Assembly (NCBI GenBank): GCA_023248635.1
Contig: JAHFED010000016.1
Span: 1-64,000 of the forward strand
DNA: 64,000 nucleotides
Source: Myxococcales bacterium
GTDB taxonomy: Bacteria; Myxococcota; UBA727; VGSZ01
Reading direction: 5' to 3'
The translations under genes and the position numbers were made by a program. Positions 3,079-54,427 of this stretch are shown here, piece by piece. The notes beneath the pieces were generated by a model, which made no database searches, was not told where the DNA came from, and saw only the letters and a program-made list of their open reading frames with translations. Positions within the stretch are counted from its first letter, which is position 1. Every line of letters starts with the position of its first letter.

Positions 3079-4446
3079 GTGGCCAACGTCGTCGTCAGTG
3101 TGCCCGGCGACAAGTCGACGTCGACCCGCGCGCTGCTCCTCGCCCTGCTGGCGGAGGGTCGCTGCACCATTGACAACGTCCCGCTGGGCCGGACCACCGA
3201 GCACGTGCTGGCCGTGTTGCGACAGCTCGGTGCCGACGTCGACGTCGTGGGAACGACCGTGGTGGTCGCGCCGCCGGCCGCCCTGCCCTCAGGCCAAACG
3301 CTCCACTGCGGCGGCAGCGCGACGCTGGCGCGCATCCTGCTGGGGCTGTTGGCTGGGGCCAACGTCGACGCTGTCGTCGATGGGAGCGAGATGCTGCGAC
3401 GACGCCCGATGGAGCGCGTCAGCAAGCCCCTCGCCGCCTACTTCGGGCGCGAGGTCGTCACCCTCGACCAAGGCCATCTGCCGGCCCGCATCCACCGCGG
3501 GGCGCCGCCGACGTCGACGGAGCCCATCGCCTGCATGGACAGCGCGCAGGTTCGTTCCGCCTTGTGCTTCGCTGCGCTGACGGCGGGACGGCCCTTCCCC
3601 GTCGCCAACACCGCCACGATCAAGGCGCGGCGGGCGTTCGAGACGTTGTGCTCGGAGATCGGCATTGCCTGGCCTGAACCTCGGGTGCCGACCTTTCGCG
3701 CGATGACCCCCAACGACCCGTCCGCGGCGGCCTTCCCGCTCGCGTTGGCCTTGGGTCTGGGGTGCGGCCTCGCGATCGACGGCCCCGTCAACGACGACCC
3801 GGGTCGCGCCGGCTTCATCGTCGCTTTGCAGATGCTGGGGGCGCGCTTTCCCCCCCGGCGCCTCGGCGACGAATTTACCGACAGCGCTTCGCGTGTCGGT
3901 GAATTGTCTACAGGTTCATCGCCTGGCGGCGATGAATTTGCCACCGACGTGGCCCGCGACCGGACACGGATCCTGAAGCGCACCCAGCCACTGAGGGGCA
4001 TCATCGTCGCCGCCGACCCGGTCCCTCCAGCGGGGCTGACGCAGGGTCCGCACGTGTATGCCCTGGGGCTCTGGCAACTCATCGACGAGGTTCCACTGCT
4101 GGCCGCCCTGTGCGCTTTGGCGACGACGTCCTCGCGCCTATGCGGCCTCGCCGAGCTGCGCGTCAAGGAGAGCGATCGGGTCTCGCGCACCGCGGAGATG
4201 CTGCAGGCCTTCGGCGCCGCCGTCGTCGAGGAGGGCGATGATCTGGTGATCGAACCGGCGCAGCTGCGACGTCCGACATCGACGATCCGCACCGACCACG
4301 ATCATCGCATCGCGATGACGGCGCTGACCCTGGGGCGCATCCTCGATGTCGAAGTGGAGCTCGACGACGAAAGTTGCGTCGAGGAAAGTTGGCCGGGCTT
4401 CGTCGCGTTCATGAAGGACACCGCATGCCGGCTGCGATGCCCTTGA
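3079..4446 (+). CDS. aroA: 3-phosphoshikimate 1-carboxyvinyltransferase (EPSP synthase) with palindromic insert
   Basis: It makes 5-enolpyruvylshikimate-3-phosphate in the shikimate pathway. Family motifs are present: PGDKS (residues 9-13), the MDSAQVRSAL phosphate-binding segment near 153, LIDEVPLLAAL carrying the catalytic Asp, LRVKESDR near 363 and DHDHRIAM near 407. The glycine loop is degenerate (CGGSATLAR). At 455 aa it is longer than the usual roughly 430, because residues 266-286 (GDEF-TDSASRVGEL-type sequence) are encoded by one copy each of two dispersed hairpin modules inserted in frame at 3874-3936. The start is GTG, 3 nt after the upstream stop. aroC and aroKB follow as one operon. 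All main catalytic residues remain, so the enzyme is probably active. Confidence 0.95.
   Translation: MANVVVSVPGDKSTSTRALLLALLAEGRCTIDNVPLGRTTEHVLAVLRQLGADVDVVGTTVVVAPPAALPSGQTLHCGGSATLARILLGLLAGANVDAVVDGSEMLRRRPMERVSKPLAAYFGREVVTLDQGHLPARIHRGAPPTSTEPIACMDSAQVRSALCFAALTAGRPFPVANTATIKARRAFETLCSEIGIAWPEPRVPTFRAMTPNDPSAAAFPLALALGLGCGLAIDGPVNDDPGRAGFIVALQMLGARFPPRRLGDEFTDSASRVGELSTGSSPGGDEFATDVARDRTRILKRTQPLRGIIVAADPVPPAGLTQGPHVYALGLWQLIDEVPLLAALCALATTSSRLCGLAELRVKESDRVSRTAEMLQAFGAAVVEEGDDLVIEPAQLRRPTSTIRTDHDHRIAMTALTLGRILDVEVELDDESCVEESWPGFVAFMKDTACRLRCP
3874..3936 (+). repeat. in-frame palindromic modules A+B inside aroA
   Basis: One module A (3874-3903, stem ACCGACA/TGTCGGT) is followed by one module B (3904-3936, perfect 9-bp stem TTCATCGCC/GGCGATGAA, loop TGGC). 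The 63 nt add 21 residues to AroA without a shift or stop. The sequence GGCGACGAATTT just before it and GGCGATGAATTT at its end form a near-direct repeat, as if the element had duplicated or shared its target. The same modules recur at 31541-31765, 53144-53488 and 54071-54196. Confidence 0.9.
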
Positions 4447-9834: not shown

Positions 9835-9858
9835 TTCAAGACGCGCCAGCGTCTTGAA
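9835..9858. repeat. perfect 10-bp hairpin upstream of VanX-like gene
   Basis: TTCAAGACGC, loop GCCA, GCGTCTTGAA. It lies 25 nt before the ATG at 9884, without a T run, so it is more likely an mRNA leader structure or repeat than a terminator. Confidence 0.55.
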
Positions 9859-24677: not shown

Positions 24678-26432
24678 ATGGAGTATCCCCAGCGCTTCGG
24701 TCCCTATGTGCTGGAGCGGTTCTTGGCCGCCGGCGGCATGGCCGAGGTGTTCGTGGCGTCGCGTCCCGACGGGCGGGTGCCGGGGCCCATCGCGCTGAAG
24801 CGCATGTTGCCGCAGATGATGGAGAACCCCGAGTACGCGACCATGTTTCGCGACGAAGCAAACCTCGCCGGGCAACTGGTGCACAAAAACGTTGTGCGGG
24901 TGTGGGACTCCGGCGAATACGACGGCCGCCTCTACATGGCGATGGAGCTCGTCGACGGCCTCGACACGTCGAGCATGCAGAAGAAGCTGCGCGCCAAAAA
25001 CGAGATGCTGGGGGTGCCCCACGCGCTGCGCATCGGCGTCGAGCTCTGCAACGGGTTGTCGGTGGCTCACTCGCTCAAAGACGAGCGCGGCGTCGCCATG
25101 ATGATCATCCACCGCGACGTCAGCCCGCAGAACATCCTCATCGCCCGCGACGGCACCGTGAAGGTCACCGACTTCGGCGTGGCCAAAGCCACCGGCAGAG
25201 AGACCCACACGGCGACGGGACACATCAAGGGGAAGATCCCCTACATGGCGCCGGAGCAGGCTCTCGCGCAGTCCATCGATCAGCGCGTCGACCAGTTCGC
25301 CGCCGGCATCGTGGTGTGGGAGCTGCTGACGGCCACGCGTTTGTTTCAGGACAAAAACGACCTGCTGATGTTCGAGAAGATCATCCGCCGGCCGACGCCG
25401 AAGCCCTCGTCGGTGCGCCAGGGGGTTCCGCCGGCCGTGGACACTGCGGTGTTGCGCGCCTTGGCCAAAAACCCCGACGAACGCTTTCCCGACGTCGCTG
25501 GCTTCGGTCGCGCTTTGCAGGCGGCGCTGCACGGCATGGGGGGGTGGGAGGTCTCGGAGCTCGCGCCCATCGTCGACTACCTGATGCCGCCCGCGGCACC
25601 CGCGCCGACGGCCCCAGGCCTGCGCCCTGCTCTCTCTCAGGCGGCGACGCCGGCCGCGGGCTCACAGACGGGCCGAGGTGCCCAATCGCTGCCCTCGCGT
25701 CCCACGGGCCAGCCCCTCACACCGGCCCCCGCAGACACCGACCACATCGCGACGCAATTCGTGCCCCAACCGCCGGCCTTGCAGACGACGCCGCCCTCGG
25801 CCACGCCGCCCTCGGTCACGCCGCTCACCGCCACGCCGGGTACGCCTCGGTCGGCGGTGCGTCCGCGGGGCCTGGGCAGCGCCGACGGGCCATCGTTTTC
25901 GAATCCTGGCGCTGTGGCGCCCGGCTCGGGGCGCAGCGAGCCCGCACTCACACTGGATCGCACCCGCAACCGCGCTCCCTCGGGTGTGGAATCGGCGGGC
26001 GGTCCCACCATCGCCCCCCTGATGCTGGCGCCGTCGTCGCCGTCGTCGTTTCCGGTGGCCTTGGTGGCCATCGCGCTCGTCGTGGGCGCTGCTGTCGGCT
26101 TCGGCATCGGTCGGGCAACCGCACCCAAGCCCGAGGTCGTGAGCAACAGTGGCTGCGCGCGTCCGTCGACGGCCACTGCCGACGTCGAAGCGGCCTACGA
26201 CCTGCTCTTGCAGTCCCAGATCCAGCTCGATGCGGGCGACATCCAGGGGGCAACGGAGAAAGCCACCGAGGCGCAGGCGCGCAGCGGGACCGCCAAAGGC
26301 CACTTCATGCTCGGTCGGATCCGCATGAAGGGAGGCGATGTGTCGTCGGGGCTCAACCACTACCGTTGCGTCTTCGAGTTGGCGCCGACCTCAGACGAGG
26401 CCAAGAAGCTCAGCATCGCCATGCCCCGGTGA
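24678..26432 (+). CDS. membrane-anchored Ser/Thr protein kinase
   Basis: A 584-aa Hanks-type kinase. The Gly-rich loop is LAAGGMAEVF, the ATP-binding Lys is Lys41 (IALKRM), the catalytic Asp is Asp147 in HRDVSPQNIL, the DFG Asp is Asp165 and the APE motif is present (APEQ). The kinase domain ends near 290. A Pro/Thr-rich linker, one transmembrane helix (about 457-479) and a C-terminal TPR-like part (DAGDIQGATEKATEAQ, KGHFMLGRIRMKGGD) follow outside the membrane. This is the common myxobacterial layout. It may signal to FHA proteins such as the one at 11724-13118, which is speculative. Confidence 0.95.
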   Translation: MEYPQRFGPYVLERFLAAGGMAEVFVASRPDGRVPGPIALKRMLPQMMENPEYATMFRDEANLAGQLVHKNVVRVWDSGEYDGRLYMAMELVDGLDTSSMQKKLRAKNEMLGVPHALRIGVELCNGLSVAHSLKDERGVAMMIIHRDVSPQNILIARDGTVKVTDFGVAKATGRETHTATGHIKGKIPYMAPEQALAQSIDQRVDQFAAGIVVWELLTATRLFQDKNDLLMFEKIIRRPTPKPSSVRQGVPPAVDTAVLRALAKNPDERFPDVAGFGRALQAALHGMGGWEVSELAPIVDYLMPPAAPAPTAPGLRPALSQAATPAAGSQTGRGAQSLPSRPTGQPLTPAPADTDHIATQFVPQPPALQTTPPSATPPSVTPLTATPGTPRSAVRPRGLGSADGPSFSNPGAVAPGSGRSEPALTLDRTRNRAPSGVESAGGPTIAPLMLAPSSPSSFPVALVAIALVVGAAVGFGIGRATAPKPEVVSNSGCARPSTATADVEAAYDLLLQSQIQLDAGDIQGATEKATEAQARSGTAKGHFMLGRIRMKGGDVSSGLNHYRCVFELAPTSDEAKKLSIAMPR

Positions 26433-26488
26433 TTCCGGAGTCGGATGCTGCCGTCGGCGCAGCCGGCTGCAGCATCCGACTCCGGAAT
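26432..26488. terminator. 20-bp perfect inverted repeat between convergent genes
   Basis: ATTCCGGAGTCGGATGCTGC (26432-26451) pairs perfectly with 26469-26488; inner CGGC/GCCG can extend it. It starts on the stop codon of the kinase gene and lies between two convergent genes, so it probably ends transcription in both directions, although no T run follows. Its right arm begins a dispersed repeat also seen at 52642-52686. Confidence 0.65.
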
Positions 26489-28250: not shown

Positions 28251-28409
28251 GGACCGAGCGGTTCGCCCAACGCCCCCAGACCGTCAAGCCGTGCGGCAGT
28301 CGCACGCGCGGAGGAAATGGGACGGCAGTACGGCGGCCTCTGCTCCAGTGGTGGCCACCCCAGTTGATCCAGCCCGGCGTCGGGCTTTCGTGCGAGGTCG
28401 AGGAGCGGC

Positions 28410-28474
28410 GCAGGGCCGGCCTCTCCGGCCGGACCGAGGAGGCGACGAAGAGATCGCGCGAAAGACCAAGCCTG
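28410..28474. repeat. dispersed intergenic repeat (partner at 54261-54327)
   Basis: GCAGGGCCGGCCTCTCCGGC at 28410-28429 and GAAAGACCAAGCCTGGCG near 28460-28477 match, in the same order and spacing, GCAGGGGCAGCCTCTCCGGC and GAAAAGACCAAGCCAGGCG at 54261-54328. The middle part is less conserved. It lies between uppS and the hydrolase gene; no gene is seen in this 265-bp spacer. Confidence 0.5.
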
Positions 28475-28515
28475 GCGCTGGTTCAACCAAGGTGATCGCC
28501 GCTGTATGTCGAGGC

Positions 28516-31081: not shown

Positions 31082-31987
31082 ATGGCTTCGCTGTGGCTCG
31101 TGCTGGACACCGCTGGGCCCGAGGCCGTGGTCGGCGTCGTCGACGTCGACGCTGGGTCGGTGCTGCGAGAGCTCTGGCTGCGGGAGCCGCGGCTTCATGC
31201 CGAGCGCCTGCCGGGGGCCGTTGCTGAGGTCGCGGCGGGAGCAGCGCTCAGCGGCATTGGTGCGGGCACGGGTCCGGGCTCCTTCATTGGTGTGCGCACG
31301 GGCCTCGCTTTTGCGAAGGGCTTGGGGCGCGCCTGGAACGTGCCTGTGGTCGGCGTGCCGTCGTTGTGGGCTTTGGCGTCGTCCCTCGACGTGCCGCGCG
31401 GGCGCTGTGTCGCCGTCGTCGACGCCAAGCGTGGGGAGCGCTACGCCCAGGTCTTTGACAGCTCGGGCAGGAGCGTGAGAGCGCGCGGCCAGCCCCAGGC
31501 CGTGGTGCCGTCGGCGGTGCCCGGGTTGAGCGGCGATGAATTCACCGACGGCGCTTCGCGTGTCGGTGAATCCACCGACGGCGCTTCGCGTGTCGGTGAA
31601 TTATCTACAGGTTCATCGCCTGGCGGCGATGAATTATCTACAGGTTCATCGCCTGGCGGCGATGAATTGTCTACAGGTTCATCGCCTGGCGGCGATGAAT
31701 TGTCTACAGGTTCATCGCCTGGCGGCGATGAATTGTCTACAGGTTCATCGCCCGGCGGCGGCGAATTCGGGGCTGGCAACGAAACCGTGGTCGGCGTCGA
31801 CGGCACCCCGGGCTTCGCGCTGGCCGGCCCACGGGCCCTGGGGATGGTGCGGGTGCTGTGCGCGCTGGATCGCAGCGACGAGCGCGCGACCCTGGCCCCG
31901 CTCTACGTTCGCGCACCCGATGCCAAGCTGCCGGCCGTGGATCCCGCGCGGCACCGCCCCCTCCTCGGCCCAGGTGAGGCGCCATGA
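31082..31987 (+). CDS. tsaB: tRNA t6A biosynthesis protein TsaB with palindromic insert
   Basis: It partners TsaD and TsaE in making N6-threonylcarbamoyladenosine of ANN-decoding tRNAs. The N-terminus (LVLDTAGPEAVVGVVD), GAGTGPGSFIGVRTGLAFAKGL and VVDAKRGERYAQVF are characteristic. Normal TsaB is about 230 aa; this one is 301 because residues 154-228 are encoded by seven hairpin modules (two A, five B) at 31541-31765, giving Gly/Ser/Asp-rich repeats such as LSTGSSPGGDE. The normal C-terminal part resumes after them (GTPGFALAGP...LAPLYVRAPDAKLP). The ribosome site GGGGAGAG precedes ATG 31082. Its stop overlaps the next gene (ATGA). Confidence 0.93.
   Translation: MASLWLVLDTAGPEAVVGVVDVDAGSVLRELWLREPRLHAERLPGAVAEVAAGAALSGIGAGTGPGSFIGVRTGLAFAKGLGRAWNVPVVGVPSLWALASSLDVPRGRCVAVVDAKRGERYAQVFDSSGRSVRARGQPQAVVPSAVPGLSGDEFTDGASRVGESTDGASRVGELSTGSSPGGDELSTGSSPGGDELSTGSSPGGDELSTGSSPGGDELSTGSSPGGGEFGAGNETVVGVDGTPGFALAGPRALGMVRVLCALDRSDERATLAPLYVRAPDAKLPAVDPARHRPLLGPGEAP
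31541..31765 (+). repeat. in-frame palindromic module array A-A-B-B-B-B-B inside tsaB
   Basis: Modules A lie at 31541-31570 and 31571-31600 and modules B at 31601, 31634, 31667, 31700 and 31733 (33 nt each). A copies carry the local variant ACCGACGGCG; B copies carry TTATCTACAGG or TTGTCTACAGG. The last B is diverged (CCCGGCGGCGGCGAA). The left flank ends GGCGATGAA, itself the end of a B module. Total 225 nt, 75 codons, no stop. Confidence 0.92.
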
Positions 31988-53113: not shown

Positions 53114-53142
53114 CAATTGGCCGCCCAGCCTGAGGGCAAAGA
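53114..53142. repeat. dispersed sequence CAATTGGCCGCCC... (partner at 63534)
   Basis: CAATTGGCCGCCCAGCCTGA and the following GGGCAAAG match 63534-63562 with about four to five differences in 29 positions. It directly precedes the module array at 53144. Confidence 0.5.
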
Positions 53143-53143
53143 A

Positions 53144-53488
53144 ATGTCTGCAGGTTCATCGCCTGTCGGTGAATTCACCGACAGCACTTCGCGTGTCGGT
53201 GAATTGTCTTCAGGTTCATCGCCTGGCGGCGATGAATTCACCGACAGCACTTCGCGTGTCGGTGAGTTGTCTTCAGGTTCATCGCCTGGCGGCGATGAAT
53301 TCACCGACAGCACTTCGCGTGTCGGTGAATTGTCTTCAGGTTCATCGCCTGGCGGCGATGAATTCACCGACAGCACTTCGCGTGTCGGTGAATTGTCTTC
53401 AGGTTCATCGCCTGGCGGCGATGAATTCACCGACAGCACTTCGCGTGTCGGTGAATTGTCTTCAGGTTCATCGCCTGGCGGCGATGAA
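53144..53488. repeat. intergenic array of five 63-bp A+B palindromic units
   Basis: After a chimeric unit (53144-53173, left half of B joined to the end of A) come five A-B units starting at 53174, 53237, 53300, 53363 and 53426, almost identical to each other. The local variants are ACAGCAC in A and TTGTCTTCAGG in B, different from those in aroA and tsaB, which implies local tandem amplification. It fills most of the 491-bp gap between two receiver genes. The rest of the gap (53489-53596) shows no recognisable gene. Confidence 0.93.
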
Positions 53489-54070: not shown

Positions 54071-54196
54071 ATCACCGACAGCGCTGCGCGTGTCGGTGAA
54101 TTCACCGACAGCGCTTCGCGTGTCGGTGAATTGTCTACAGGTTCATCGCCTGGCGGCGATGAATTGTCTACAGGTTCATCGCCTGGCGGCGATGAA
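54071..54196. repeat. intergenic palindromic array A-A-B-B
   Basis: Modules A at 54071-54100 and 54101-54130, modules B at 54131-54163 and 54164-54196. Variants are the aroA type (ACAGCG, TTGTCTACAGG). It lies upstream of the receiver gene 53597-54025, in a 402-bp spacer that otherwise contains only the repeat at 54261-54327. Confidence 0.92.
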
Positions 54197-54260
54197 ATCC
54201 GTGGCCGACATGGTTGATCGAGCATGGCGCCGCGGATTCTCGGTGGCAGCTCGGCGCGCC

Positions 54261-54327
54261 GCAGGGGCAGCCTCTCCGGCTTCACCGACGACGCAACGAC
54301 GCCCCCACCGAAAAGACCAAGCCAGGC
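54261..54327. repeat. dispersed intergenic repeat (partner at 28410-28474)
   Basis: GCAGGGGCAGCCTCTCCGGC, a variable middle and GAAAAGACCAAGCCAGGCG, in the same order as at 28410. The following 100 bp to the end of the lipoprotein gene show nothing recognisable. Confidence 0.5.
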
Positions 54328-54427
54328 GACCCAATCATTTTGATCATGGGGTTTAGGGGGCTGGGAGGTCAGGTGTCCGCCTGGTGTCCGCGAACGTCTG
54401 TCCGGACACATCCGCAGGGTCGCAACC

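Follow-up and report, generated by a model that had tools for sequence, protein, structure and literature searches.

The tsaB gene of this Myxococcales bacterium carries an in-frame array of palindromic modules that is probably a copy of a short non-autonomous element, one that has multiplied within the species, inserts at AATT and later grows in tandem. The two modules, A and B, make up a repeat that is interspersed through the genome in hundreds of copies and are not a feature of tsaB. The array occupies positions 31541–31765 of the window, the whole 64,000-nt stretch analyzed here. Direct reading of the window sequence confirmed the order A-A-B-B-B-B-B that an initial annotation had proposed, and the module sizes given there (30 nt for A and 33 nt for B, summing to 225 nt or 75 codons) were correct, as were the encoded peptides (Table 1). 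The description of the stems required adjustment. The A hairpin exists in tsaB, but with the stem TTCACCGACG and TCCACCGACG, whereas the stem originally assigned to it, TTCACCGACA, is the genome consensus; the B stem stands except in the last copy, where it is degenerate (GGCGGCGGCGAA). As for the open frames originally claimed, the consensus AB unit has two on the plus strand (0 and 1) and one on the minus strand, and its other three frames are closed. Immediately ahead of the array lie 11 nt, GCGGCGATGAA, that correspond to the end of another B. In the window, hairpins A and B have 10 and 13 matches, respectively, compared with 0 in 100 dinucleotide shuffles, which excludes a chance origin.

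The identity of the host gene as TsaB was upheld by a match of the open reading frame to Pfam PF00814 (TsaD/TsaB type, 2.8e-16) and by TsaB/YeaZ chains as the best PDB matches once the insert was removed. The sole additional match to TsaB in the same genome was weak (2e-4), suggesting that tsaB is single-copy. Orthologues in G001, G002 (same genus) and G003 (same family) are uninterrupted at the insert position, which falls past the conserved DAKRGERY region, in a stretch of variable length. The insert would add 75 hydrophilic residues, probably as an unstructured loop, and is most likely near-neutral for the host. A single-sequence AlphaFold model of TsaB with the insert (mean pLDDT 34) was useless for structure.

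Table 1. Window features that contain or consist of the palindromic modules.
Feature	Position	Strand	Basis
aroA (EPSP synthase), second in-frame host	3079..4446	+	PF00275 at 9.4e-55; insert-free orthologues
One 63-nt AB unit within the aroA frame	3874..3936	+	module matches
tsaB, 301 codons, array host	31082..31987	+	PF00814, PDB TsaB/YeaZ, insert-free orthologues
GCGGCGATGAA, probable remnant of a B module end, left edge	31530..31540	+	direct reading; inference
A copy 1 (FTDGASRVGE), rare ACGG variant as in copy 2	31541..31570	+	hairpin match
A copy 2 (STDGASRVGE)	31571..31600	+	hairpin match
B copy 1 (LSTGSSPGGDE), TTATC variant	31601..31633	+	hairpin match
B copy 2, TTATC variant	31634..31666	+	hairpin match
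B copy 3, consensus	31667..31699	+	hairpin match
B copy 4, consensus	31700..31732	+	hairpin match
B copy 5, right stem degenerate (GGCGGCGGCGAA)	31733..31765	+	hairpin match
Module C, 27 nt plus AATT-like edges, 3 mismatches, abuts next array	53115..53145	+	
Intergenic array B(AB)5	53144..53488	+	module matches
Intergenic array AABB	54071..54196	+	module matches

A search of both modules through the genome and its relatives, as the initial annotation had proposed, found hundreds of copies in the former and essentially none in the latter. Within the host genome (a 6.53 Mb draft of 135 contigs, 96.7% complete with 2.9% contamination) and at up to 3 mismatches, the head of B had approximately 245 matches and A had 164–174, compared with 0 for the reversed-sequence controls of both. 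Module A had 0 matches in 194 other genomes of the phylum, and a search of 57 relatives for B returned just four isolated matches, with 2–3 mismatches, in 3 genomes. The B pattern was absent from 2.9 million viral contigs. Among 84,980 species genomes it matched once, in a Thermoguttaceae MAG (L157), at a place without a hairpin, and this match was judged to be chance. In G002 and G003, unbiased k-mer scans covering 0.40 Mb and 0.38 Mb, respectively, detected no dispersed palindromes, and an Rfam search with the modules gave one meaningless match, far under its threshold. As far as can be seen in genome collections that may omit near-identical records, with strains of this species outside their coverage, the palindrome family appears to be species-specific and young.

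Array anatomy was described from the window and 80 further stretches, most of them surrounding copies, 1.48 Mb in all (23% of the genome); this sample is biased toward module copies and contains 119 arrays. Arrays usually consist of one 63-nt AB unit or of several, (AB)n; the variants AA, BB and inverted A also occur. In the AB unit, hairpins A and B are joined by an 11-nt linker. The original view of two modules holds insofar as A and B are distinct, but together they make up one 63-nt unit, and AA and BB are later local duplications. In the consensus, the two ends of the unit are alike, TTCACCGAC and the reverse-complemented TTCATCGCC being identical at 7/9 positions. The GAA-TT junctions that had been singled out as peculiar are real and represent an AATT target found on both sides of the insertion: left edges read G in 55/66, A in 62/66 and A in 63/66 cases, and right edges T in 57/78 and T in 72/78. 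Spacings from one AATT to the next, in a genome poor in AATT, peak sharply at 30 nt (125), 33 nt (135) and 27 nt (17), the last corresponding to a third module, C (TTGGCCGCCCGGCCTGAGGGCAGAGAA), with 66 copies genome-wide. In the B(AB)5 array of the window, private variants (GCACTTC, and TTGTCTTC apart from the edges) are common to all five AB units. A restriction-site explanation, EcoRI-like avoidance of GAATTC, was unsupported (observed/expected 1.12 outside arrays).

Filled and empty sites were sought by joining array flanks and then searching the fetched DNA. Two pairs were recovered, both inside copies of a separate element of approximately 160 nt with inverted-repeat ends, copies of which occur both with and without AB arrays. 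In one pair, the empty site GAGGAAATTCCCGG (L129, L083, L121, L069) corresponds to the filled site GAGGAAAT(C)CACC...GATGAATTCCCGG in L113, a net gain of exactly 126 nt. In the other, the empty TTTCCTAATTGATTGACC (L129) corresponds to TTTCCGAATTCACC...GATGAATTGATTGACC in L069, a net gain of exactly 63 nt, and the base preceding AATT also differs (T to G). Both inserts lie between AA and TT, with AATT flanking them on each side and occurring once in the empty sites. These pairs demonstrate insertion rather than chance convergence. The element of approximately 160 nt has ends AGGGCGGTTTCCT...AGGAAACCGCCCT and 13 matches in its own genome, with weaker ones in relatives; it lies at L129:923-1081 (reverse complement) and in L069, L083, L113 and L121, and stretches related to it occupy window positions 28364–28490 and 54211–54329.

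Variation among copies bears on what happens after landing. When both A copies compared were non-consensus, they were identical in 14/35 comparisons within arrays and in 59/3535 between arrays; for B the corresponding figures were 36/102 and 62/8154. Since non-consensus copies are identical far more often within arrays than between them, arrays appear to grow by local duplication after landing. The tsaB array fits such growth, as the rare ACGG variant is common to its pair of A copies and TTATC to two adjacent B copies.

The initial annotation had also called for a count of genic and intergenic copies and of their reading frames. Most arrays proved to be intergenic, with about a dozen in frame in genes: according to a home-made gene caller, 95 of the 119 (approximately 80%) are intergenic, 17 lie inside genes and 7 overlap them. 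Two arrays considered as genic, L110:4073 and L081:17806, were rejected, as both lie between called genes. Outside arrays, 83% of GAATT sites are within genes, so that genic landings are strongly under-represented among the arrays, whether by avoidance or, more likely, by selection. Genic array length is a multiple of three in 16/17 cases, the exception (L076) being in a doubtful upstream reading. Hosts include three protein kinases with arrays outside the kinase domain (L088, L116, L120), a histidine kinase (L130), a lytic transglycosylase (L109), an HPt protein (L131), a MerR-type regulator (L099), a PLD/VTT protein (L110) and the enzymes AroA, TsaB and LipB, all three of which have orthologues without the insert. 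In LipB (L082:14074-14976), ABAB read antisense and a hairpin of type D together add approximately 60 residues just ahead of the conserved K(L/V)xAIGV stretch, and comparison with orthologues reveals a very clean interruption between GC and H(A/V)VE. The majority of genic copies are read in the sense frame EFTDSASRVGELSTGSSPGGD, and the antisense frame NSSPPGDEPVDNSPTREALSV is used in LipB, L109 and L082:5336. This usage follows from the phase of same-strand GAATT sites, which is GAA TTN in 278/403, and from which frames lack stops; a protein-level purpose need not be assumed.

In the reading that we favor, a 63-nt AB element would land at AATT, usually GAATT(C/G), leaving AATT on both sides. 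It may be moved by an enzyme or by a recombination process acting on hairpins. Single AB units would then expand by local tandem duplication, as presumably occurred in TsaB, and most genic insertions would be purged. Those that survive would span a multiple of three nucleotides, be read in an open frame and sit in a loop, linker or tail that tolerates them. As the lengths of A and B are divisible by three and three of their frames are open, some genic copies can survive. Neither an autonomous partner nor an insertion sequence with matching ends was found in the 1.48 Mb, and no transposase was found between close arrays. A possible but rather doubtful reading is a new kind of mobile palindrome, in which modules with AATT edges (A, B and the 27-nt C) each offer a new AATT target on which others chain, moved by an enzyme of neither the RAYT nor the IS200/IS605 type and with lengths that keep the frame by chance.

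It is unlikely that the modules are a classical REP/REPIN family whose mobilizing RAYT tyrosine transposase has since been lost or is missing from the assembly. The palindromes are of REP size, paired, chiefly intergenic and in some cases intragenic, as described for REPs (PMC3733652), and the reverse-strand linker CCTGTAGACAA of the consensus has GTAG beside hairpin A. However, this GTAG lies 4 nt off the A stem and 3 nt off the B stem, so the consensus modules have no conserved unpaired GTAG at the palindrome base, and no position of B varies more than its T (79% conserved, compared with approximately 98% in the stem). A CGTC tag is likewise absent from the ends of consensus A and B. Y1_Tnp (PF01797) had no match in the whole draft genome, although a control search was positive in 5/14 genomes, and the TnpB-type zinc-ribbon family (PF07282) was absent from the same draft; with neither TnpA Y1 nor TnpB present, an origin from RAYT or IS200/IS605 elements was rejected. 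The AATT on both sides suggests instead that the target was cut with a stagger and duplicated, a mode not expected of the RAYT transposase class. A second alternative, that the hairpins are functional RNA or DNA elements under selection (terminators, mRNA stabilizers or protein-binding sites) with genic copies as by-products, seems improbable. A and B do fold as strong hairpins (z-score of the AB unit -6.7), and B stems, with positions 92–100% conserved (mostly 98–99%), are better preserved than the linker, where conservation drops to 79%. There is also a slight excess of arrays between convergent genes (18/86 placed arrays vs. 13% of intergenic bases) and a deficit between divergent genes (18/86 vs. 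29%). Against this, compensated double changes number 1 in A and 2 in B, compared with 73 and 39 pair-breaking single-side changes; arrays occur in all gene orientations, no array is conserved in relatives, and the stem is not followed by a T-run.

Two further explanations were considered. If TsaB and other proteins had acquired a repeat peptide domain in frame, this would account for hydrophilic, tandem, in-frame segments in about a dozen proteins, but we consider such a device very improbable given that most copies are intergenic, that the hosts are unrelated to each other, that the three antisense cases encode another peptide from the opposite strand, and that frame usage tracks GAATT codon phase and the absence of stops. 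We attach equally little credence to an assembly artefact in which repeats were misjoined into tsaB. The assembly is a somewhat contaminated draft with contigs that end at or near arrays (e.g., C4, C80, C132, C133), and tandem copy numbers may therefore be wrong. Nevertheless, the open frame runs unbroken into and out of the array, variants private to the array are present (ACGG in each A copy, TTATC in two copies of B), and other genes show the same in-frame pattern. The initial annotation had held that an unbroken TsaB in relatives, together with an artefact here, would undermine its claim. Relatives do carry TsaB without the modules, but the artefact was not borne out, and since the modules occupy dozens of independent loci, insert-free relatives imply recent insertion.

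Comparison with described systems upheld the view that the modules and their GAA-TT junctions fit no recognized family. No conserved GTAG or CGTC tag and no RAYT gene was found, and the ORF-borne definition of PARCELs does not apply. The likeness to Rickettsia palindromic elements (RPEs) that had been suggested from the outset also holds: RPEs are palindromes of one lineage that lie in frame in unrelated genes and are translated (PMC10969869, PMC3733652), and here, too, palindromic repeats of one lineage are in frame in many unrelated genes. RPEs, compared here by description, differ in being approximately 150 bp or CGTC-tagged (RPE-4, RPE-6), and nearly half of their copies in R. conorii were genic in the first report, vs. 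the mostly intergenic copies here; the present element is a two-hairpin unit at AATT with tandem growth in an unrelated large-genome bacterium. REPs, REPINs and BIMEs are similarly palindromes of 20–40 nt at high copy number, in pairs or clusters, mostly intergenic and sometimes genic (PMC3733652), where clusters inside genes encode 43–82 residues (PMC3733652). The AB family matches a loose definition of REPs as high-copy short palindromes that are mainly extragenic, but differs in having no conserved tag or RAYT gene and in consisting of head-to-tail direct repeats of two different hairpins with AATT on both sides. MITEs share its short, non-coding nature, high copy number and target on both sides, duplicated in the two filled/empty cases, and possibly its imperfect terminal repeats, whereas the AB unit is just 63 nt long, with two internal hairpins, weak terminal repeats (7/9 nt) and no parental insertion sequence in the 1.48 Mb searched. 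PARCEL is tandem palindromic DNA that is translated (PMC2996958), as the genic copies here would be; its 25-residue repeats lie in ORFs across distant clades, in contrast to the mostly intergenic hydrophilic units of 10/11 residues in one species. The AB element is best read as a REP/MITE-like palindrome that resembles RPEs and intragenic REPs and would belong to no named family.

A recent burst of hairpin repeats thus appears to have reached the housekeeping enzymes TsaB, AroA and LipB and to have been kept there as extra protein segments, a case outside those usually cited (Rickettsia and a few REP-rich species). Comparing copies with empty sites of one and the same genome makes the AATT target and the exact gain of 63 or 126 nt readable, and what moves tag-less palindromes is a question now testable in one organism.

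Hairpin repeats seem to be tolerated unusually well in this genome. Allowing up to 2 mismatches, it contains 443 copies of another palindromic family, R1 (CAAGACGCGCCAGCGTCTTG; e.g., window 9837–9856, plus strand); 18 relatives gave one stray match. Tandem copies of R1 are spaced 33 or 34 nt apart, and within called genes R1 can be read in frame (KTRQRLEHPNF). Two further species-specific palindromes, R2 (TTTGCGCCGTTGGCACGGCGCAAA; 35-nt spacing, 113 copies in 1.48 Mb) and D (GATGCAGCTTGGGGGCCGAAGGCC), occur in L074, L089, L091, L107 and others. Another repeat, R3 (CTGATCCCCGATCTCGCTGAACTTCGACCGCGG...), is longer and composite, probably extending over a few hundred nt; its core occurs 38 times in 29 of the 81 sampled sequences. 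Finally, a 27-nt inverted repeat interrupted by a 3-nt gap (ATTCCGGAGTCGGATGCTGCCGTCGGC) lies at window positions 26432–26488 and is directly followed by a stretch resembling the start of module C (attctctgccct).
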